Shown here piece by piece: positions 6,814-47,950 of a DNA stretch of 64,000 nt. Under the pieces are notes generated by a model. That model worked only from the letters and a program-made list of their open reading frames with translations. It was not told where the DNA came from and did no database searches. Each line of letters opens with the position of its first letter. Positions within the stretch are counted from its first letter, which is position 1. The stretch covers positions 1,689,001-1,753,000 of the forward strand of contig NZ_CP110008.1 in NCBI RefSeq assembly GCF_025947285.1. The letters run 5' to 3'. The position numbers and the translations under genes are program-made. Source of the stretch: Flavobacterium sp. N2820. GTDB taxonomy: Bacteria; Bacteroidota; Bacteroidia; Flavobacteriales; Flavobacteriaceae.

Positions 6814-7164
6814 ATGTCAGATTTAGTAAAAGAATTCAATGATTACCGTTCAAAAATGAACGAAAAATTATTAGCCGATAACAACAAAGTCATCAAAAGA
6901 ATTTTCAATGTAGATACAAATGCTTACATGGAAGGTGCTTTAGATGTAAAAACTAAAGAACTTCTAGGATTAGTAGCTTCTGCTGTATTGCGTTGTGACG
7001 ATTGCATTAAATATCATTTAGAAACCGCTTACAAAAATGGCGTTACAAAAGAAGAAATGATGGAAAGTATGGGAATTGCTACTTTAGTGGGCGGAACCAT
7101 TGTAATACCTCATTTAAGACGAGCATACGAATTTTGGGAAGCACTTGAAGAAAGTGTTCAGTAA
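6814..7164 (+). CDS. Carboxymuconolactone decarboxylase/AhpD-like protein
   Basis: A 116-residue all-helical protein of the carboxymuconolactone decarboxylase superfamily. The redox centre is C61-D-D-C64 with H68 (LRCDDCIKYHLETAYKNG), the CxxC-x3-H arrangement of AhpD-like peroxidase partners. The expected GITKEEMMEAM-type segment follows (GVTKEEMMESMGIA). It probably acts as a thiol-disulphide reductase or peroxidase in the cytoplasm. It starts 3 bp after tatC and is likely in that operon. The stop codon lies inside the first word of a short repeat array (7159-7184). Confidence 0.88.
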   Translation: MSDLVKEFNDYRSKMNEKLLADNNKVIKRIFNVDTNAYMEGALDVKTKELLGLVASAVLRCDDCIKYHLETAYKNGVTKEEMMESMGIATLVGGTIVIPHLRRAYEFWEALEESVQ

Positions 7165-7184
7165 TCAGTAACAGTAATCAGTAT
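7159..7184 (+). repeat. Short word array CAGTAAT (imperfect 6/7-bp period)
   Basis: Four consecutive words: CAGTAAT, CAGTAA, CAGTAAT, CAGTAT. The first word contains the TAA stop of the AhpD-like gene. It belongs to the same class of gene-end arrays as those near 11059, 12294 and 47254, but its period is imperfect (7, 6, 7, 6). Confidence 0.6.
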
Positions 7185-7244
7185 AAGTTAAAACAAAATT
7201 AAAGTAAGTTTTAGCATTAAATAAAATTTATACTTTTACAAAAA

Positions 7245-7282
7245 ATTGGCTCATTGCCGAATTGACTAATTGACACATTACC
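7245..7282 (+). repeat. 8-bp periodic array ATTG-NNNN before lptB
   Basis: Exactly phased 8-bp units ATTGGCTC, ATTGCCGA, ATTGACTA, ATTGACAC (7245-7276), then a partial ATTACC. The constant head is ATTG and the 4-nt tail varies. The array ends 3 bp before the lptB ATG at 7286, so it would lie in the lptB leader or overlap its promoter. Confidence 0.7.
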
Positions 7283-7285
7283 AAA

Positions 7286-8083
7286 ATGAAATTAAGAGCA
7301 GAAAATTTAGTTAAAACCTATAAAAAAAGAAGTGTAGTAAAAGGAATTTCCGTTGAAGTAAATCAAGGGGAAATCGTAGGTTTATTAGGTCCAAATGGTG
7401 CCGGAAAAACCACTTCGTTCTACATGATTGTAGGTTTAGTAAAACCAAATAGCGGCAATATTTATCTGGATGATATGGACATCACCAATTATCCAATGTA
7501 TAAACGTGCACAAAACGGAATTGGTTATTTGGCGCAAGAAGCTTCTGTTTTTAGAAAACTAAGTATCGAAGATAACATATTGAGCGTACTACAATTAACT
7601 ACCCTTTCAAAAGAAGCACAAGAAGCTAAAATGGAAGAATTAATTGCTGAGTTTGCTTTAGAACATATTCGTACCAATCGTGGAGATTTACTTTCAGGTG
7701 GAGAACGTCGTCGTACCGAAATTGCACGTGCTTTAGCAACTGATCCAAAATTCATTCTTTTGGACGAACCTTTTGCAGGCGTTGACCCTGTAGCAGTAGA
7801 AGATATTCAACGAATTGTAGCGCAATTAAAAAATAAAAACATCGGAATTTTAATTACAGACCACAACGTACAAGAAACATTAGCAATTACCGATAAAACC
7901 TACTTAATGTTTGAAGGTGGTATTCTAAAAGCCGGAAAACCAGAAGAATTAGTAGCAGACGAAATGGTAAGACGTGTTTATCTTGGACAAAACTTCGAAT
8001 TGCGTAAAACTAAAATTGACTTCGAAGCACCTAAAACAACTATCATTCACGGAAAAGGAGAATTAAACTCAAACAAAGAGTAG
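7286..8083 (+). CDS. lptB: LPS export ABC transporter ATP-binding protein
   Basis: A 265-residue ABC ATPase that would power LptFGC-driven transport of LPS to the outer membrane. It shows Walker A GPNGAGKT (35-42), the Q-loop in [14 protein letters not shown], signature [16 protein letters not shown], Walker [14 protein letters not shown] and the H-loop ITDHNV. The motifs [12 protein letters not shown] and LSGGERRR are characteristic of LptB. Residues from about 240 form a short C-terminal extension beyond the E. coli length. No classical -7 element is visible because the upstream 40 bp is an 8-bp periodic array. Confidence 0.95.
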
Positions 8084-9975: not shown

Positions 9976-11055
9976 TTGGCATTGAAAAAGATCTTTTTAA
10001 TTCTATTCGTTGGAATAACTGCCCTAAACTATGCGCAAACAGTTCGAAAATACTCGAATGAGTTTATGAATATTGGGGTGGATGCTGCTGCTTTGGGAAT
10101 GTCTAATGCAGTAGTTTCTCATACGAGTGATGTAAATTCGGGCTACTGGAATCCTGCAGGTTTACTAAAATTAGAAGACAAACAATTTTCGTTAATGCAT
10201 GCGAGTTATTTTGCAAATATTGCCCAATATGATTATGCTGCTTTTGCGATGCCAATTGACAACCGAAGTGCCGTTGGAATTTCGTTAATTCGTTTTGGAG
10301 TAGATGACATTTTAAATACCACACAACTAATTGACAGCGAAGGAAATATAGATTACAACAGAATTTCATTATTTTCAACCGCCGATTACGGTTTAACCGT
10401 TTCCTATGCGAGAAGTTTACCCATCGAAGGATTAAATTATGGCGTGAATGCCAAGGTAATTCGAAGAGTTATAGGTGATTTTGCTAATTCGTGGGGATTT
10501 GGATTGGATTTAGGAATCCAATATATCAGCGAAGACGAAGATTGGAAATTTGGGTTAATGATTAGAGATATTACAACTACATACAATACGTGGACAATCG
10601 ACGAAGAAAAATACCAGGAAATTGCAGATGCCGTACCCGGTGAAAATCAAGAATTGCCAGAAACGAGCGAAATTACCTTACCAAAAGCGCAATTGGGTAT
10701 GTCTAAAAAGTGGATTATTCGCTACGATTATAGTTTAGTTGCTGCAGCTAATTTAAACATGCAATTTGCCAGAACAAACGATATTATTTCTACCAATACA
10801 GTGAGTATTGACCCTGCTTTAGGATTTGAATTTGGTTATATAAATTTAGTTTATTTGCGAGGTGGAGTTGGAAATTTTCAACAAATTACCCAAATAGACG
10901 ATTCTAAAAAACTGAGCTTTCAACCCAATATTGGTATCGGATTCAAATATAAAGGAATTCATGTTGATTATGCACTAACCGACTTAGGTGATCAAAGTGC
11001 CGCTTTGTATTCGAATATTTTTTCGATAAAAGTAGATTGGGAATTGTTTAGATAA
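9976..11055 (+). CDS. PorV/PorQ-family outer-membrane protein (T9SS-associated type)
   Basis: A 359-residue protein with an N-terminal signal peptide (LKKIFLILFVGITALNYAQ) and a predicted beta-barrel. Its N-terminal mature region, GVDAAALGMSNAVVSHTSDVNSGYWNPAGL, is the hallmark of PorV/PorQ (UPF0164-like) proteins, which in Bacteroidota shuttle or process T9SS cargo. It resembles the PorV2 type rather than PorV itself, which is inference from length and motif. The initiator is TTG; 9976 is the longest, but TTG at 9982 gives a more typical signal peptide start. The stop is followed at once by a strict 7-bp array. Confidence 0.8.
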   Translation: MALKKIFLILFVGITALNYAQTVRKYSNEFMNIGVDAAALGMSNAVVSHTSDVNSGYWNPAGLLKLEDKQFSLMHASYFANIAQYDYAAFAMPIDNRSAVGISLIRFGVDDILNTTQLIDSEGNIDYNRISLFSTADYGLTVSYARSLPIEGLNYGVNAKVIRRVIGDFANSWGFGLDLGIQYISEDEDWKFGLMIRDITTTYNTWTIDEEKYQEIADAVPGENQELPETSEITLPKAQLGMSKKWIIRYDYSLVAAANLNMQFARTNDIISTNTVSIDPALGFEFGYINLVYLRGGVGNFQQITQIDDSKKLSFQPNIGIGFKYKGIHVDYALTDLGDQSAALYSNIFSIKVDWELFR

Positions 11056-11058
11056 TTT

Positions 11059-11093
11059 AAGAAAAAAGAGCAAAGAAACTAGAAGAAAGACTT
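11059..11093 (+). repeat. Heptad array AAGA-NNN (5 x 7 bp)
   Basis: Five exactly phased 7-bp units: AAGAAAA, AAGAGCA, AAGAAAC, TAGAAGA, AAGACTT. The array begins 3 bp after the stop codon of the PorV-like gene and ends 8 bp before the DUF4105 start. The head AAGA is kept in four units and the 3-nt tail varies. Confidence 0.65.
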
Positions 11094-11101
11094 TAAATAA
11101 A

Positions 11102-12223
11102 ATGATAAAAAAACTACTTTTCACGCTACTTATTTTAATTTCTTTTCATGGATTTTCCCAAAATATATCCCTTTCAAACCAAGCGAAAGTAAGTATTTTA
11201 ACCTGTGGCACTGGACCAGAATCATATGCAATGTATGGACATACGGGAATTCGAATTCAGGATACAGCCCAACAAATTGATGTAGTTTACAATTATGGCG
11301 CGTTTGATTTTAATACCCCTAACTTCATCGGGAAATTTATAAAAGGTGATTTACAATATTTTGTAACAAATGGAAGTTATATCGATTTTTACTACAATTA
11401 TCAAGCTGAAAATCGTGAAATTATCGAACAAAATCTGGCACTTTCTTCGACACAAATCAATCAATTGTTTCAGCAACTAAATGCCTCTGTTTATAGTGAT
11501 GATCGATTCTATACCTATAAATTTATTGATAGAAATTGTACTACAATGGTTGTGGATAAAATCAATAGCACATTAGGCAGTGAATACATAAAATCGGCCA
11601 CAACAAATCAATCGTATAGAGAAATCTTGTATCCCTACATGACTGATTTTTATATGAAATTAGGCATTCAATTGATTTTTGGTGCAAAAGTAGATGAACC
11701 TGCTACTCGCCTATTTTTACCTTATGAATTCAAAAAAGCAATTTCGGATACAAAAGTAAACGGAAGCGGTATTGAACAATCAAACAAAACCATCTTAGAA
11801 GCTAGAAAAACGGATCTTCCATTCAATTGGTTAAATTCGATTTATTCTTTAATTGGAGCGCTTTTACTTTTAGTTATTTTAGGTAAAAAGTGGCTAAAAA
11901 TTAGTTATTTTATCTTTGCTGGATTATTAGGAGTTTTCTTTTCTTTAGTAGGATTATACTCGCTACATGAAGAAATATTATGGAATTATAACATTCTATT
12001 ATTCAATCCTTTAGTGTTATTTTTTACATGGTATTATTGGAAAGGTAATTGTGCAAAAATTGTGCTTTTTGGAAAAATTTGTCTTGGGTTTCTACTAGCA
12101 TATTTTGTTTATATGTTAAACAAAATACATTTAGAAATTGTGTGGCCTTTTATCGTATTACATTTTTACTGGATAGCAAAAATTGTTTTACAGAATAAAA
12201 AATGTAATATAGTTCGCGGATAA
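11102..12223 (+). CDS. DUF4105 (Lnb N-terminal periplasmic domain-like) membrane protein
   Basis: A 373-residue protein with a signal peptide (MIKKLLFTLLILISFHGFSQ), a periplasmic domain (about 25-245) and four or more membrane helices in the last 130 residues. The periplasmic part carries SILTCGTGPESYAMYGHTGIRI, VVYNYGAFDFNTPNFIGKF and the Cys/Asn motif FIDRNCTTMVVDKI, which fit the DUF4105 family, a predicted papain/NlpC-like hydrolase fold with Cys and His. Substrate unknown; a cell-envelope lipid or peptide is inferred. It is probably co-transcribed with the PorV-like gene. Confidence 0.8.
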   Translation: MIKKLLFTLLILISFHGFSQNISLSNQAKVSILTCGTGPESYAMYGHTGIRIQDTAQQIDVVYNYGAFDFNTPNFIGKFIKGDLQYFVTNGSYIDFYYNYQAENREIIEQNLALSSTQINQLFQQLNASVYSDDRFYTYKFIDRNCTTMVVDKINSTLGSEYIKSATTNQSYREILYPYMTDFYMKLGIQLIFGAKVDEPATRLFLPYEFKKAISDTKVNGSGIEQSNKTILEARKTDLPFNWLNSIYSLIGALLLLVILGKKWLKISYFIFAGLLGVFFSLVGLYSLHEEILWNYNILLFNPLVLFFTWYYWKGNCAKIVLFGKICLGFLLAYFVYMLNKIHLEIVWPFIVLHFYWIAKIVLQNKKCNIVRG

Positions 12224-12293
12224 AACGGATTCTCTGAGGCGAAACGCTGGGTAAATAAATTTTTATCACTTGATTTTTCATCATGTATTTCCT

Positions 12294-12349
12294 AAAACTG
12301 ACTACGAAACACTGATCACTGTAAACTGAATACTGCACACTGATTATTG
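12294..12349 (+). repeat. Heptad array NNN-ACTG (8 x 7 bp) at the sugar transferase stop
   Basis: Eight exactly phased 7-bp units: AAAACTG, ACTACGA, AACACTG, ATCACTG, TAAACTG, AATACTG, CACACTG, ATTATTG. Six of the eight keep ACTG and a seventh keeps three of its four bases. The last unit covers the stop codon and last codon of the minus-strand sugar transferase (12344-12349). The opposite neighbour DUF4105 ends 70 bp upstream, so the array lies between convergent genes. Confidence 0.75.
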
Positions 12350-13726
12350 TCCTCTAAAAAACAAAATAGTACTCATTGTTTTTAAAACGATATTGATATC
12401 CAAAAACAAACTTCGGTGTTTAATGTAATATAAATCGTAGCGCAATTTCATCAAACTATCTTCTAGATTAGAACCATACGAATAATTCACTTGAGCCCAA
12501 CCCGTAAGTCCTGGCTTAATTACGTGTCTAGTTTGATACAAGGGAATTATAGCCGAAATTTCAGTAACAAAAACTGGGCGTTCTGGTCGTGGACCAATGA
12601 TTGCCATTTCACCTTTTAGCACATTAATAAATTGAGGCAATTCGTCTAAACGCGTTTTTCGAAGAAACTTACCAAATGGAGTTATCCTAGCATCACCAAC
12701 AGTTGCAAAAACAGCACCATTTTTCTCTGCATCTTGAACCATTGTTCGCAATTTGTAAATTGTAAAAGGGATTCCGTTTTTTCCTACTCGTTCTTGCGAA
12801 TAAAAAAAGCTTCCACGGTTGGCTATAAGATTTACCAACCACAAAATGGGTGCAATTGAAAAGAACCCGAGCAAACCCAAAACCGAAAAACCTATATCAA
12901 AAATTCGGCTGAAATAGACATATAACTTATTTTGATTGCTACGACTAAAAGGAAAAAACTTATACAATTCTTTACTCTCAAAGTTAATCGGCAATCTGTA
13001 AGTGCTATTTTCGTATACTTCTTTGTATTGTCGTATGACTAATCCGCGCTCCAAATAACGCAATAACTCAGCGTATAATTCAACCGAGTTACTTTTGTTT
13101 TTTATTTGCGAAACTACAATTTCTGACACATAATTTTTATAAATAAAATTTTCTAAATGGGCTTCGTCTACCAAATGAATTCTTGTTTTTTGAGGAACCT
13201 CATCTGTAGCAACATAACCTACAACTTTGTAGTGAGGATTAACTGTAAATAATTCGGCAACTAAATCATCAATTTCTTTGCTGCTCCCTATGAAAAGTAC
13301 TTTTTTTACAAATCGATTGGAAGCTAAAAAAACAATATACAAATTACGCCAAATCAATAAAGCGAAGAATATGGCAAAGAAAAACAAAATAATTTGCAAT
13401 CGATTGGAAGGCAAAACTGGAGTATACAGAGGCGTTAACAAATACAAAAGCGTTGTCAAAGCGGTTGTAAGTACAATACTTTTTGAAACTTGAAAGCGAT
13501 TACTAGCTGTTTGTAAATTATACATTTCGAAAATAGTTCCAAAAAAATTAATGTAAACGGCTAAAACGATAGTCCAGTAGAAATTTGTCCTTGAAACTTT
13601 AAAATAATCGAATTGAAGAAAATGCCCAATTAATGCTAAAATTAACACTATAAAAAGCACATCCATTGTACGCAAAAGGATTTTACGTTCAGAAATTTCA
13701 AAATGAATTCTTTTTTTGTTGTGCAT
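12344..13726 (-). CDS. Polyprenyl glycosylphosphotransferase (priming sugar transferase)
   Basis: A 460-residue membrane enzyme of the WcaJ/WbaP type that transfers a sugar-1-phosphate from a UDP-sugar to undecaprenyl phosphate to begin a repeat unit. It has an N-terminal block of about four helices (20-130), a central nucleotide-binding-like domain (VLFIGSSKEIDDL), another helix near 275, and the catalytic domain (about 270-460) with FYSQERVGKNGIPFTIYKLRTM, RKTRLDELPQFINVLKGEM and IGPRPERPVF. It ends the minus-strand operon. The sugar cannot be read from sequence. TTACTTTG (minus, 13747-13754) is a near-consensus -7 element, so it may also have its own promoter. Confidence 0.93.
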   Translation of the reverse strand: MHNKKRIHFEISERKILLRTMDVLFIVLILALIGHFLQFDYFKVSRTNFYWTIVLAVYINFFGTIFEMYNLQTASNRFQVSKSIVLTTALTTLLYLLTPLYTPVLPSNRLQIILFFFAIFFALLIWRNLYIVFLASNRFVKKVLFIGSSKEIDDLVAELFTVNPHYKVVGYVATDEVPQKTRIHLVDEAHLENFIYKNYVSEIVVSQIKNKSNSVELYAELLRYLERGLVIRQYKEVYENSTYRLPINFESKELYKFFPFSRSNQNKLYVYFSRIFDIGFSVLGLLGFFSIAPILWLVNLIANRGSFFYSQERVGKNGIPFTIYKLRTMVQDAEKNGAVFATVGDARITPFGKFLRKTRLDELPQFINVLKGEMAIIGPRPERPVFVTEISAIIPLYQTRHVIKPGLTGWAQVNYSYGSNLEDSLMKLRYDLYYIKHRSLFLDINIVLKTMSTILFFRGQ

Positions 13727-17301: not shown

Positions 17302-18441
17302 CTAAATTAATTCTCCTTTTAGCAACTTACTTATTTCAGTTTCAAACATATTGGTTGTGAATTGTTGAGACCACGATTGTCCTTCCGAAACCATTTTTTG
17401 ACACAGCACTTGATTATTTATAACTTCTGTAATTTGGTTAGCATCTTCGCATAATTTTTCACGTAAAATAATACCTCTACTTCCATTTCCCATCATATAA
17501 GTAACACAAGAAACAGGCGAAGCTATTGGAACACAACCCCAAAACATCGCTTCAGCAATTACTTTTGGCCATCCTTCACTTTTAGAGGGTAAAATAAGAA
17601 AATGACTTGTTTGGTAGGCTTCTAAAATCGTTTCTTTAGGTTGGTTTCCTTTTAGTTTAATTAATTCACTCAAATTATTTTGAGATATATAGTGTTCTAT
17701 TTCTGTTCTTAAAACACCTTCACCATATAAATCAAAGATAACTTTTTCTCCTTTTTTACACAACTCTTCTACAAGTTGAACCGCATACAAAGGTTGTTTC
17801 CCTTTAGACAATGTACCTACAAAAAGAAAACGATAAGGTGCTGTAAATTTTGAACGTTGAATATTATATTTTGAATGTTGAACGTCTATTTCATCATAGG
17901 TAGCAGTAAAAAAAGGCTTTATATTTTTTGTTTGATTTTCCCAATCACCATATACCAAGACTTGCATGTTCTTAGTTAAGAATGTATTGCTTAAAATCCA
18001 ACGTTGTAATTTGTAGGTAAGAGGCTGTTTTGCTTTTGGATCCCAATTGCCAGCATATTTAGCTGTTTTTATTTTTTTAGGAAAAAGTATTTGAACAATT
18101 AATGCCAATAATGATATGTTTCCTGGACAACGCAAGTGAATATGGTCCGCTTTTTTCATCGCTTTAAATATTCGATATAAATCGATTAAAGCCTTTGGAA
18201 TTGCTTGTAAAATATTAGAAAAAGAAGTAATATCAAATTCTTCCAACTCGATAGTTGGAGCTATTTCAAAAGAAATTGGAGCTATTAATAACTTTTTATC
18301 TTCATTCCAAATAGGACAACAAAACTGAATTGAATTAGTATGTTTGGCCCATAATTGCATTTCCTTTTCGTAAGGCGCATAAAGTTGGTTTTTTCCGTCT
18401 TTTTGAACTATGGGTGCTGAAGAAATTACAACTAACTTCAT
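17302..18441 (-). CDS. Glycosyltransferase family 4 with a repeat-derived linker
   Basis: A 379-residue enzyme when started at the ATG at 18441 (MKLVVISSAPIVQKDGKN); the frame is open to 18495. The N-terminal region has YAPYEKEMQLWAKH, typical of this GT4 subfamily. The C-terminal domain begins APYRFLFVGTLSKGKQPLYAVQLVEEL and contains LPSKSEGWPKVIAEAMFWGCVPIA. Between the two domains, residues encoded at 17848-17882 (VQHSKYN then IQRSKF) come from a strict 7-bp DNA array, so the linker appears to derive from a repeat. The array keeps the frame open. Confidence 0.9.
   Translation of the reverse strand: MKLVVISSAPIVQKDGKNQLYAPYEKEMQLWAKHTNSIQFCCPIWNEDKKLLIAPISFEIAPTIELEEFDITSFSNILQAIPKALIDLYRIFKAMKKADHIHLRCPGNISLLALIVQILFPKKIKTAKYAGNWDPKAKQPLTYKLQRWILSNTFLTKNMQVLVYGDWENQTKNIKPFFTATYDEIDVQHSKYNIQRSKFTAPYRFLFVGTLSKGKQPLYAVQLVEELCKKGEKVIFDLYGEGVLRTEIEHYISQNNLSELIKLKGNQPKETILEAYQTSHFLILPSKSEGWPKVIAEAMFWGCVPIASPVSCVTYMMGNGSRGIILREKLCEDANQITEVINNQVLCQKMVSEGQSWSQQFTTNMFETEISKLLKGELI
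17848..17882 (-). repeat. Heptad array TTCAA-NN (5 x 7 bp) inside a coding region
   Basis: On the minus strand five exactly phased units are visible: TTCAACA, TTCAAAA, TATAATA, TTCAACG, TTCAAAA. The array lies inside the glycosyltransferase gene at the junction of its two Rossmann-like domains and is translated into a degenerate 7-residue duplication. It has the same design as the intergenic arrays at 11059 and 12294. Confidence 0.7.
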
Positions 18442-18442
18442 T

Positions 18443-18994
18443 TTAAATGTAGCCCTCCGAACTTTTTTCTGATACTTTAATAGCTGGAACACCAAGCATC
18501 ACACTGTTGTAAGCGACATTACTATTTACTAATGAACAAGCAGCTATCAAAACATTGTCTTCCACGACAATATTTCCAGCCACAACAGCATTTGCACCAA
18601 TATAAACATTGTTCCCAATTTTTGGAACACCTCTTTTTTCACCATGCCCAGAAACACCAATTGTTACTCCTTGCGAAATATTACAATTGTTTCCAATAAC
18701 TGTCTTTGCATTTAGAATAATTCCTCCAAAATGTCCTATATAAAAAGAATGTCCAATTTGTGCAGAAGCGGGTATCGAAATTCCTGTTAGCACTTCAATT
18801 GCTTTTTGCCAAAACAAACACAAAATTCGCAATACTTGTTTTACAATTGGAACAGGTGTTTTATATACAGCATGTGCAATTCGGTACTGAAAAACAGCCC
18901 AAAATCCTTGCGTTAAAAATATAATTGTAACAAAATTACCACCATATTTTTTATATTTTTTATAATCCAAAAATACAAGATTCCAACAGCCCAT
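18443..18994 (-). CDS. Serine acetyltransferase-like hexapeptide O-acetyltransferase
   Basis: A 183-residue left-handed beta-helix acyltransferase. An N-terminal helical part (FWAVFQYRIAHAVYKTP) is followed by hexapeptide repeats: ISIPASAQIGHSFYIGHFGGIILNAKTVIGNNCNISQGVTIG, then GVPKIGNNVYIGANAVVAGNIVVEDNVLI. In cysteine synthesis this fold acetylates serine, but here, as the first gene before a run of glycosyltransferases, acetylation of a polysaccharide sugar is more likely. It ends just ahead of the next gene's start at 18441. Confidence 0.85.
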   Translation of the reverse strand: MGCWNLVFLDYKKYKKYGGNFVTIIFLTQGFWAVFQYRIAHAVYKTPVPIVKQVLRILCLFWQKAIEVLTGISIPASAQIGHSFYIGHFGGIILNAKTVIGNNCNISQGVTIGVSGHGEKRGVPKIGNNVYIGANAVVAGNIVVEDNVLIAACSLVNSNVAYNSVMLGVPAIKVSEKSSEGYI

Positions 18995-46212: not shown

Positions 46213-47253
46213 TTACTCAAAATCCCCAAAATCTAACTGCTCATCATTTGCAATTGTTCTTGTTGCTTTTTTTCCTAATAACGAATCAAAATGTTCTGCT
46301 AAAATTTTACCCGTTCCAGGACGTTTTACCCATATATTATCTTTAGTTAACACTTCTCCTTTTTGGATAGAGGCAATAGAACAAACCGTTGCAAAAGCAA
46401 AATCAATCGTTACTTGCTCTTCATCAGCTGGTTTTTTGGTTCCACCACGCATTTGCGCCATTTCGGTACTATTGATGATTAATTCTTTTGTGGCTTGTTC
46501 ATCCATACTACATACAATATCTGGACCTGTACGATTCATGTGATCTGTAAAGTGTCGCTCTAAAATGGATGCGCCTAATGCAACTGCACCTAAACACGCA
46601 TTATTATTTAAGGTATGGTCTGATAATCCAAAAACTTTATCTGGGAAAGCTTGATGCATTTCCATCATGGCGCCAAATCGAACTAAATGAATTGGTGTTG
46701 GATATAAATTAGTAGTATGTAATAAAGCCACAGGAACTTTATGTTTATCAAAAATAGCCACTGCTTTTTGGATACTATCAATCGTATTCATTCCTGTGCT
46801 TAAAATAACTGGTTTTCCAAAAGAGGCAATATGTTCTAATAAAGGATAATTATTACATTCTCCCGAACCAATTTTATAAGCGGGTATATCAAACTTTTTC
46901 AAGCGTTCAGCAGCTGCACGAGAAAATGGAGTAGATATAAAAATCATACCTTTACTTTCTACATAGTTTTTTAATTCTAATTCTTCCTCTTCATTTAAAG
47001 CACAACGCTCCATAATTTCATAAATAGACACATTTGCATTGCCTGGAATTACTTTTTTAGCTGCACCACTCATTTCGTCAGCAACAATATGTGTTTGGTG
47101 TTTGACGACCTCAACGCCTGCTCTGTTTGCTGCATCAACCATTTCTTTGGCTACTTGCAAAGAACCTTCGTGATTGATTCCGATTTCTGCAATGACTAAT
47201 GGTGGAAAATCTTGACCAATTTTTCTTCCTGCAATTTCTATATAGGGATTCAT
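46213..47253 (-). CDS. neuB: N-acetylneuraminate (nonulosonic acid) synthase
   Basis: A 346-residue TIM-barrel enzyme that condenses a ManNAc-type sugar with phosphoenolpyruvate. Motifs are [104 protein letters not shown] and the C-terminal antifreeze-like SAF region (about 285-346, [16 protein letters not shown]). All substrate-pocket signatures of the NeuB family are visible. Neuraminic versus legionaminic product cannot be decided. Confidence 0.94.
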
Positions 47254-47295
47254 AAAATGAGTTATGAGTTATGAGTTATGAGTTATGAGTTATAA
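47254..47295 (+). repeat. Heptad array GTTATGA over the neuA stop codon
   Basis: Four identical phased GTTATGA units at 47261-47288 are flanked by related units AAAATGA (47254-47260) and GTTATAA (47289-47295). On the minus strand the neuA reading frame enters the array and its stop codon (47276-47278) lies within it. The 7-bp unit is not a multiple of 3, so a change in copy number could move the frame and alter the last residues of NeuA. Confidence 0.85.
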
Positions 47296-47950
47296 ATTTA
47301 TTGTATAAATATTCTGCGTAATCAAAATCTTCTTGGGTATCAATATCTATAGTGGCAAAAAGATGATTAACTACTAAAGGAAAGGCCTCTTTTGTAATGA
47401 TTTCATTATTTAGTACAACCGATGCTTTAGTAATATACAACAGGCCATTTTCGTAATATAAGGGTTCTAAGTCCTGACTACGTTGTCCAACTTTATAATT
47501 ATATGGAATAAATGTATGATTTATAATTTTTCCTAATTTGTGATGACTACGCGAAACCGTAAACAAACTGTCCACTTGTTTTTCTTGAAAAAGAAGAAAG
47601 GCATCATGTAATAAATTATCTGGACGCAGTGGATTAGTAGCTTGCAGTAGTACAACATTTTCTACTTCATAAGTAATTGTTTCTATAACATGCTTTAGAG
47701 CGGAAACAGTAGGTTCATAATCTCCAGAAAGCATTTGAGGTCTATCGATTACCAGAGCACCATATTCTAAAGCTACTTTTTTTATGGCGTCATCATCTGT
47801 AGAAACATAAACGGCGTCTATAAATTTGTGTTGTTGTGCATACAAAATGCTATGCGCCAGTAAAGGAATACCGCCTAATAATTTTATATTTTTACCCTGC
47901 AAACGTTTAGATCCGCCCCGGGCAGGAATGATGGCTATTGTTTTACTCAT
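47276..47950 (-). CDS. neuA: CMP-nonulosonate (acylneuraminate) cytidylyltransferase
   Basis: A 224-residue enzyme that activates the acidic sugar with CTP. It begins IAIIPARGGSKRLQGKNIKLLGGIPLLAHSI, the nucleotide-binding signature, with VYVSTDDDAI, LLQATNPLRPDNLL and SLFTVSRSHHKLG later. The terminal tail is FDYAEYLYNKFITHNS, with its last residues encoded by the heptad array. It lies 22 bp upstream of neuB in the direction of transcription. CMP-Neu5Ac or a relative is the likely product. Confidence 0.93.
   Translation of the reverse strand: MSKTIAIIPARGGSKRLQGKNIKLLGGIPLLAHSILYAQQHKFIDAVYVSTDDDAIKKVALEYGALVIDRPQMLSGDYEPTVSALKHVIETITYEVENVVLLQATNPLRPDNLLHDAFLLFQEKQVDSLFTVSRSHHKLGKIINHTFIPYNYKVGQRSQDLEPLYYENGLLYITKASVVLNNEIITKEAFPLVVNHLFATIDIDTQEDFDYAEYLYNKFITHNS

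Follow-up and report, generated by a model that had tools for sequence, protein, structure and literature searches.

Tandem arrays in the window

The window, meaning the whole stretch of 64,000 nucleotides that was analysed, is part of a 3.06 Mb chromosome of Flavobacterium, whose closest named relatives on one protein tree are F. odoriferum and F. celericrescens. Several gene borders in it carry short tandem arrays. A CAGT array at 7159..7183 on the plus strand (tandem repeat row 7158-7183) has four CAGT heads and one shortened unit, includes the stop codon (7162-7164) of the ORF at 6814-7164, and runs outward from that stop. The ATTG octad array at 7243..7276 (plus) lies just 5' of the start codon at 7286 of an ABC-transporter ATPase gene (Pfam ABC_tran), the lptB of the initial annotation. 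Five AAGA heptads (11059..11093, plus) stand between a stop at 11055 and a start at 11102. Eight heptads at 12294..12349 read ACTG on the plus strand; on the minus strand, to which we assign them, they form a CAGT array that leads away from the stop codon of the ORF at 12344-13726 (minus), and ten orthologous rows, including the window, cover them. Near-exact ATGAGTT (GTTATGA) heptads at 47257..47298 (minus), first cited at 47254, extend from the start of the ORF at 46213-47253 (minus) through the stop of the ORF at 47276-47950 (minus). Finally, weak TTCAA heptads occupy 17848..17882 (minus) within the ORF at 17302-18495 (minus).

All five arrays listed in the initial annotation are present; the CAGT array at 7159-7183 was absent from its list. 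The stop-codon placement that it described is true of the arrays at 11059, 12294 and 47254, as judged from ORF ends. Its constant head is seen in six of the eight units at 12294, which end in exact ACTG, and is broken in one of the five AAGA units, which reads TAGA. A search for a plasmid copy of the spacer gave no match. Beside the ACTG array, at about 12215-12250 (minus; L120 1405-1439, minus), we also observed a spacer module of the form CAGCG...ATCCGCG. It recurs in another species and a different spacer (L043, 2925-2959, plus); among 321 loci, the pattern matches only L043 and two overlapping loci of the genome under study, and diverged copies were seen by eye in L031 and L042.

The cited arrays were scored by consensus matches against 60 Markov-shuffled windows, the value being the number of equally good places expected per window. 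Taken alone, only the arrays at 12294 (43/56 matches, 0.05 expected) and 47254 (40/42, 0.00) exceed chance; those at 11059 (27/35, 5.00), 17848 (29/35, 0.32) and 7245 (27/32, 0.65) do not. The array at 11059 is backed by similar AAGA arrays in orthologous spacers, and that at 7245 by the recurrence of the ATTG octad at 14 distinct genomic sites, where the reversed control gave none. Support of this kind, from relatives or from genome-wide recurrence, was not found for 17848-17882, which probably reflects chance and falls outside the repeat class.

Genome-wide, an array was counted when five units had at least four invariant columns. The sample from the own genome was 384 kb, namely the window and 16 evenly placed stretches out of 20; the other four (L020, L024, L025 and L027), placed on AAGA hits, were kept out of the counts and included in the column test below. 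Period 7 gave 13 arrays where shuffles gave 0.30 (no one of the ten exceeding 2); the window, chosen for the finding, supplies two of the 13. Period 8 gave 4 against 0.10, period 11 gave 2 (0.50 shuffled), period 14, a harmonic, gave 5 (0.50), and periods 5, 6, 9, 10, 12 and 13 gave 0 or 1. The counts from 400 kb of G036, a congener picked for its richness in ACTG arrays, were 8 arrays at period 7 (0.20 shuffled), 3 at period 8 (0.00), 2 at period 10 (0.20), and 0 or 1 at the remaining periods. Heptad arrays are mostly non-coding (10 of 13 in the own genome, 7 of 8 in G036), in genomes where about 10-12% of the DNA is non-coding. The comparison of lags 7 and 8 with shuffled sequence, which the initial annotation had proposed, thus succeeds for discrete arrays (13 vs 0.3) and fails for spacers as a whole: lag-7 matching is 1.031 times expectation, not above lags 6 and 8, and drops to 1.007 after the arrays are masked. 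We therefore rejected a pervasive lag-7 signal in spacers; the period-7 signal resides in discrete arrays.

Words, orientation and gene ends

The idea that each array has its own word did not survive, as the ACTG and ATTG words recur throughout the genome and the genus. Four consecutive ACTGNNN units with at most one mismatch gave 50 overlapping hits in the own genome against 1 for the reversed control, and exact units gave 57 against 0 in G036; the fourfold word is present in 35 of 61 Flavobacterium genomes and in 148 of 395 genomes across the phylum. The own genome mainly uses ACTGAAC and ACTGAAT. ATTG octads gave 19 hits there (the 14 distinct sites mentioned above), and AAACYTK in three copies gave 7 hits against 2 for the control. 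AAGA was rejected as a genome-wide word: the count of fourfold AAGA (12) is not above that of its reversed control (13), so that its support comes from orthologous spacers only. We also rejected ACTG as a privileged word of the phylum. The control word GTCA outnumbers it in G349, G172, G180, G195, G238 and others, which indicates that vocabularies are genome-specific. The ACTG, AAGA, AAACYTK and ATTG words have no G-runs; the CTCC octads of L035 and L046 have one G-rich strand.

Three side observations concern these words. GTCA at period 7 is very abundant in the five Bacteroidota genomes just named (e.g. 208 and 227 hits in G172). On the own chromosome (G000), all 20 exact fourfold ACTG hits are on the plus strand, and with one mismatch 38 are on the plus and 12 on the minus strand; because hits overlap, these counts exceed the number of distinct sites. 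In two loci of G036 (L137 and L151, about 1501-1532), the tRNA-Ile and tRNA-Ala genes have one and the same ACTG heptad array between them, whose string occurs at six places in that genome, presumably rRNA operon spacers.

The arrays have a nearly strict orientation relative to gene borders, which were taken from longest-ORF calls made for this analysis. For the own genome (at most one mismatch) and G036 (exact arrays), L163 and L164 overlap, so that 40 intergenic rows represent 38 distinct arrays; one further own site (2618884) is omitted, and of the six rRNA-operon hits in G036 only one was entered. Read as CAGT, 27 of the 38 have a border within 30 nt on the 5' side only, one on the 3' side only, four on both sides and six on neither, and six more arrays lie inside ORFs. 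Elsewhere, 58 CAGT arrays were 36 outward-only, 0 inward-only, 7 both, 8 neither and 7 inside ORFs. They were drawn from 14 loci of G040 and G033, 27 loci of other Flavobacterium genomes, and 19 of 30 loci of other genera (five genera entered; all G298 loci, one small cluster, were dropped). Combined, 63 arrays are outward-only and 1 is inward-only. The border is usually a stop codon and in a minority a start codon, −3 to 17 nt from the ACTG array; four ACTG arrays of the own genome lie just upstream of start codons. Lone CAGT/ACTG words have no strand bias near stops (36/29) or starts (28/31).

At 13 of the 14 ATTG-octad sites a gene border lies no more than 35 nt from the 3' end of the array, and at two of these 13 another lies within the same distance of the other end; octads that share a spacer (L199/L201, L202/L204) are not independent. 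Base composition (A-rich before starts) was set aside as the cause of this orientation, since ATTGACTA and its complement would be equal in composition. The AAACYTK arrays, at six sites, all point to a called start at a distance of 11 to 118 nt. Among five AAGA loci examined, three lie within 8 nt after a stop, in sense, and two do not.

Where arrays adjoin stops, TAG is in excess: 6 of 13 in the own genome vs 52 of 358 genes (p 0.006), and 8 of 14 in G036 vs 45 of 301 genes (p 0.0003). Arrays also encode C-terminal residues, as in L126 (VVSVQ) and L139 (VISGQ). The protein of the own locus L181 ends in KNPKK followed by a TAG with the array; in G012, by eye from the alignment, TAA comes after these residues. 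The protein of the ORF at 6814-7164 (CMD family; window 7150-7164) likewise appears by eye to end in array-encoded SVQ, resembling L126.

Many outward CAGT arrays face an inverted partner. In 75 testable spacers, an opposed ACTG head pair was found in 36 and a further same-strand pair in 11, against 2 and 8 for control words, where a spacer with two qualifying arms may count twice (L266, L290); 39 of the 75 arrays had no inverted partner in the opposed-head test. For ATTG octads, a partner was present at 10 of 14 sites vs 3 and 1 for controls. In a test independent of the word, only 4 of 22 de novo arrays had a partner and the two window arrays tested had none, and inverted partners were rejected as an explanation for all arrays. 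Elements in which both arms have three or more heads (n 20) have a mean z of −3.4 for predicted folding, with 17 of 20 below −2, values that are partly built in because the elements were selected for opposed arms. The tails of the two arms agree more within (0.67) than between elements (0.53). Inside one genome, this agreement vanishes (0.68, n 7, vs 0.66, n 10; p 0.46); it was rejected as a genome effect, and pairing of the tails therefore gains no support. As a separate observation by eye, G012 has an opposed CAGT/ACTG pair followed by a T run (L257, about 1440-1530), and the own spacer between the same genes has a different terminator-like hairpin.

Array differences between relatives and possible origins

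Orthologous spacers, to which the initial annotation had pointed for a check, have both array-sized differences and different words at the same place. In the spacer before the Lnb_N gene (window 11056-11101; 25 related loci, words read by eye), AAGA-type heptads are found in 11 of 25 loci besides the window, GATG heptads in L029 and L044, AACYTGA heptads in six loci (one unit only in L053), and CAGT heptads in L049, L051 and L052, with something else in L048 and L050. Neighbours on the protein tree carry different words here (L031/L033, L038/L043, window/L029), and the spacer of L039 is 14 nt shorter than that of L038. At the downstream position, ACTG arrays of 4 to 8 units occur in ten rows including the window, CTCC octads in L035 and L046, and no clear array in L029, L033 and L036. 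After the trmD stop, 30 genomes (of 60 searched; L208-L237, words by eye) have CAGT, GTTTAAA, GTTATGA, GTTTCAAG, AAAGTCG or AAGA-like arrays, or none.

Two pairs involve the own genome directly. Its L181 spacer holds an opposed CAGT/ACTG pair, and the corresponding genes of G012 are 6 bp apart; the array of the own trmD spacer is missing from G023. On alignment, both read as array-sized differences, and such pairs do not separate gain from loss. The spacer pairs at L026, L178, L017 and L176 were also aligned and were too divergent for a clean reading.

Within units, heads and tails differ for some words only. In the orthologous ACTG rows, pairwise comparison of nine rows gave differing cells in 81/748 for heads vs 167/561 for tails, and of seven rows 36/436 vs 77/327; the rows are related and not independent, and nine of ten were used (L039 left out), with seven in the smaller count. 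Across seven rows of orthologous AAGA spacers, AGA columns vary in 0/15 and tail columns in 3/15, and the first A varies in three of five units. Flanking units have a head identity of 377/656 and a tail identity of 207/492 overall, and in the own genome, G040, G033 and G283 flanking heads are kept little or no better than tails. Once arrays with ACTG or AAGA words are set aside by eye, 12 arrays have four invariant columns; contiguous variable columns were seen in 4 of them vs 2.4 expected. Accordingly, the constant head and variable tail of the initial annotation hold for the ACTG rows and the AAGA word, and found no support as a general rule outside these words.

Tentatively, and well short of conviction, we regard the arrays as slippage-prone heptads that enter and leave spacers as entire arrays, frequently as palindromes able to form hairpins, and that persist at gene borders. 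Units would come and go by slippage in steps of 7 or 14 nt, as the observed 14-nt difference suggests. Whole arrays would enter, leave and replace each other in spacers, consistent with the array-sized and word differences observed, and they may be copied between spacers, for example by template switching or recombination between arrays. The dispersal unit of ACTG and ATTG may often be a palindrome whose first arm is CAGT (or CAAT) and whose second is ACTG (or ATTG). Inserting either way, such a palindrome would leave the CAGT strand running outward from whichever border it touched. The outward rule would thus follow from the palindrome starting with CAGT in either direction of insertion, provided that single arms are remnants of palindromes, as we propose. 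The survival of arrays at gene borders would be due to their exclusion by coding sequence elsewhere and to their ability to supply a stop codon. Paired arms are predicted to fold into intercistronic or 3'-end hairpins, perhaps acting as terminators or RNA stabilisers.

An unlikely reading, though one with an appreciable chance, is that the arrays are neutral microsatellites, in which local 7-nt slippage seeds expand and then decay by point mutation, and in which border placement only reflects exclusion from coding sequence. The initial annotation had argued against ordinary slippage; the loss of 14 nt of units in L039 and the exact array at 47254 speak for it instead, as do the random placement of variable columns in most arrays other than ACTG and AAGA and the heptamer excess of many bacteria, which has been ascribed to polymerase slippage (PMC4679880, PMC4692102). 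However, local slippage does not predict the strand rule of 63 outward-only arrays to 1, which is the chief objection, and the same words at many loci of many species, whole-array differences and the lower divergence of heads than tails in the orthologous ACTG rows also weigh against it.

Selection on the head, which the initial annotation had raised, could instead hold the head and its phase if an RNA- or DNA-binding protein read the head every 7 nt and the tail drifted. This we consider improbable. The lower divergence of heads in the ACTG rows, the invariant AGA columns (0/15 against 3/15 in tails) and the better overall keeping of flanking heads (377/656 vs 207/492) would all be expected from such a reader; yet the head advantage is missing in the own genome, G040, G033 and G283, and the first A of AAGA varies in three of five units. 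Moreover, one conserved reader is unlikely, given that the word varies from genome to genome and, within a single spacer, from one sister species to the next.

We give still less credence to a broader version of the palindrome idea, in which the arrays are arms of phylum-wide, word-coded palindromic elements that are copied to gene borders by a novel mechanism, carry the word and not the exact tails, and take over gene ends so as to provide the stop. If true, the outward rule for unrelated Flavobacterium words, together with the published GGGANTN rule of Xanthomonas, would suggest that a general process, independent of quadruplexes and of any one word, operates at gene ends.

Polar growth, by which an array extends one way and overwrites the spacer until purifying selection stops it at a gene border, is very unlikely. 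It would account for arrays that overlap stop codons and encode last residues, and for an outward orientation at starts and stops alike. Growth toward the gene was nevertheless rejected, as the gradient of head perfection runs the opposite way: across 27 arrays, 49/81 heads are exact beside the stop vs 62/81 distally, although the stop itself, as TAGT, contributes to the lower stop-side count. Chance patterning of AT-rich sequence, to which three of the five cited arrays inside the shuffle range and the AAGA count (12 vs 13) might point, is refuted for the class by 13 and 8 heptad arrays vs 0.3 and 0.2 in shuffles and by the similar AAGA arrays in orthologous spacers, and is scarcely credible.

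Relation to known repeats and significance

REP/BIME elements are dispersed palindromic extragenic elements that form hairpins near the 3' ends of genes and have a cognate transposase, RAYT. Their arms are not tandem heptads, which sets them apart; opposed arms, which a short palindromic unit would have, were observed here in 36/75 CAGT arrays and 10/14 octad sites, but in only 4/22 arrays in the word-independent test. The tandem heptanucleotides of Calothrix go by the name STRR. Three of these have been reported (cited in PMC4692102); they too are tandem heptanucleotides, and their words are cyanobacterial. Long simple sequence repeats, with heptanucleotides the most abundant, were found by Mrazek et al. 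2007, as described in PMC4679880. The general excess of 7-nt repeats in bacterial genomes is shared, whereas those repeats are near-exact, with no strand or border rule in that description. Heptamer-derived satellites are also known in bacteria (PMC6749651).

The initial annotation knew of no described element class with this design, yet heterogeneous heptamer repeats have been published as GGGANTN and TAACTGA (PMC4692102, PMC4679880). TAACTGA direct repeats occur in marine Beggiatoaceae, Cyanobacteria and five Bacteroidetes, in intergenic positions just upstream of starts, and other heptamer repeats occur in Gramella, Aequorivita and Elizabethkingia (PMC4679880). The arrays studied here resemble TAACTGA in being intergenic heptads with nearly the same ACTG word, at four own sites just upstream of starts, and in their absence from the spacer of the nearest relative. 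As far as the available text of that paper describes them, TAACTGA repeats are mostly exact copies near starts, whereas the present arrays have variable tails and are mostly stop-anchored in reverse complement, with the own words ACTGAAC and ACTGAAT in place of an exact TAACTGA.

The second published group comprises GGGANTN (GGGAATC) heptads in Xanthomonas and GGGGA(C/T)T in Nostoc, G-rich and quadruplex-forming, of which the Nostoc repeats favour the non-coding strand (PMC4692102). Here, too, tandem 7-bp units have some conserved and some variable columns, a strong non-coding bias, placement at stop codons and, for the CAGT family and the ATTG octads, a fixed outward strand. In contrast to the one G-rich quadruplex word per lineage given in the accessible part of that paper, several words, mostly free of G-runs, are found here, and related species differ in the word at the same spacer. 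In the same part of the paper we found no mention of an excess of TAG stops. The arrays are thus a multi-word variant of heterogeneous heptameric (also octameric) intergenic tandem repeats, and not of the quadruplex subtype. Our literature search, which covered mainly sources other than subscription journals, found no paper on these arrays in Flavobacterium.

What is new is the use of several unrelated words in one genus, with related species differing in the word at the same spacer, together with the nearly strict outward rule for CAGT (63 vs 1), the excess of TAG at junctions of arrays and gene ends, and the opposed inverted partner in 36 of 75 spacers. Published heptamers have been interpreted through their word, as G-quadruplexes (PMC4692102) or, for TAACTGA, as a regulator site (PMC4679880). 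Period, placement and outward strand are the same here for several words of one genus, most of them free of G-runs, which argues against quadruplexes as the general cause. Species that differ in the word at one spacer, as at the trmD 3' end or at 11056-11101, offer ready-made comparisons, and the thirty trmD spacers are a natural series in which to study turnover. As the arrays supply stop codons and the last residues of proteins, they are relevant to gene annotation and to the evolution of spacers in compact genomes.
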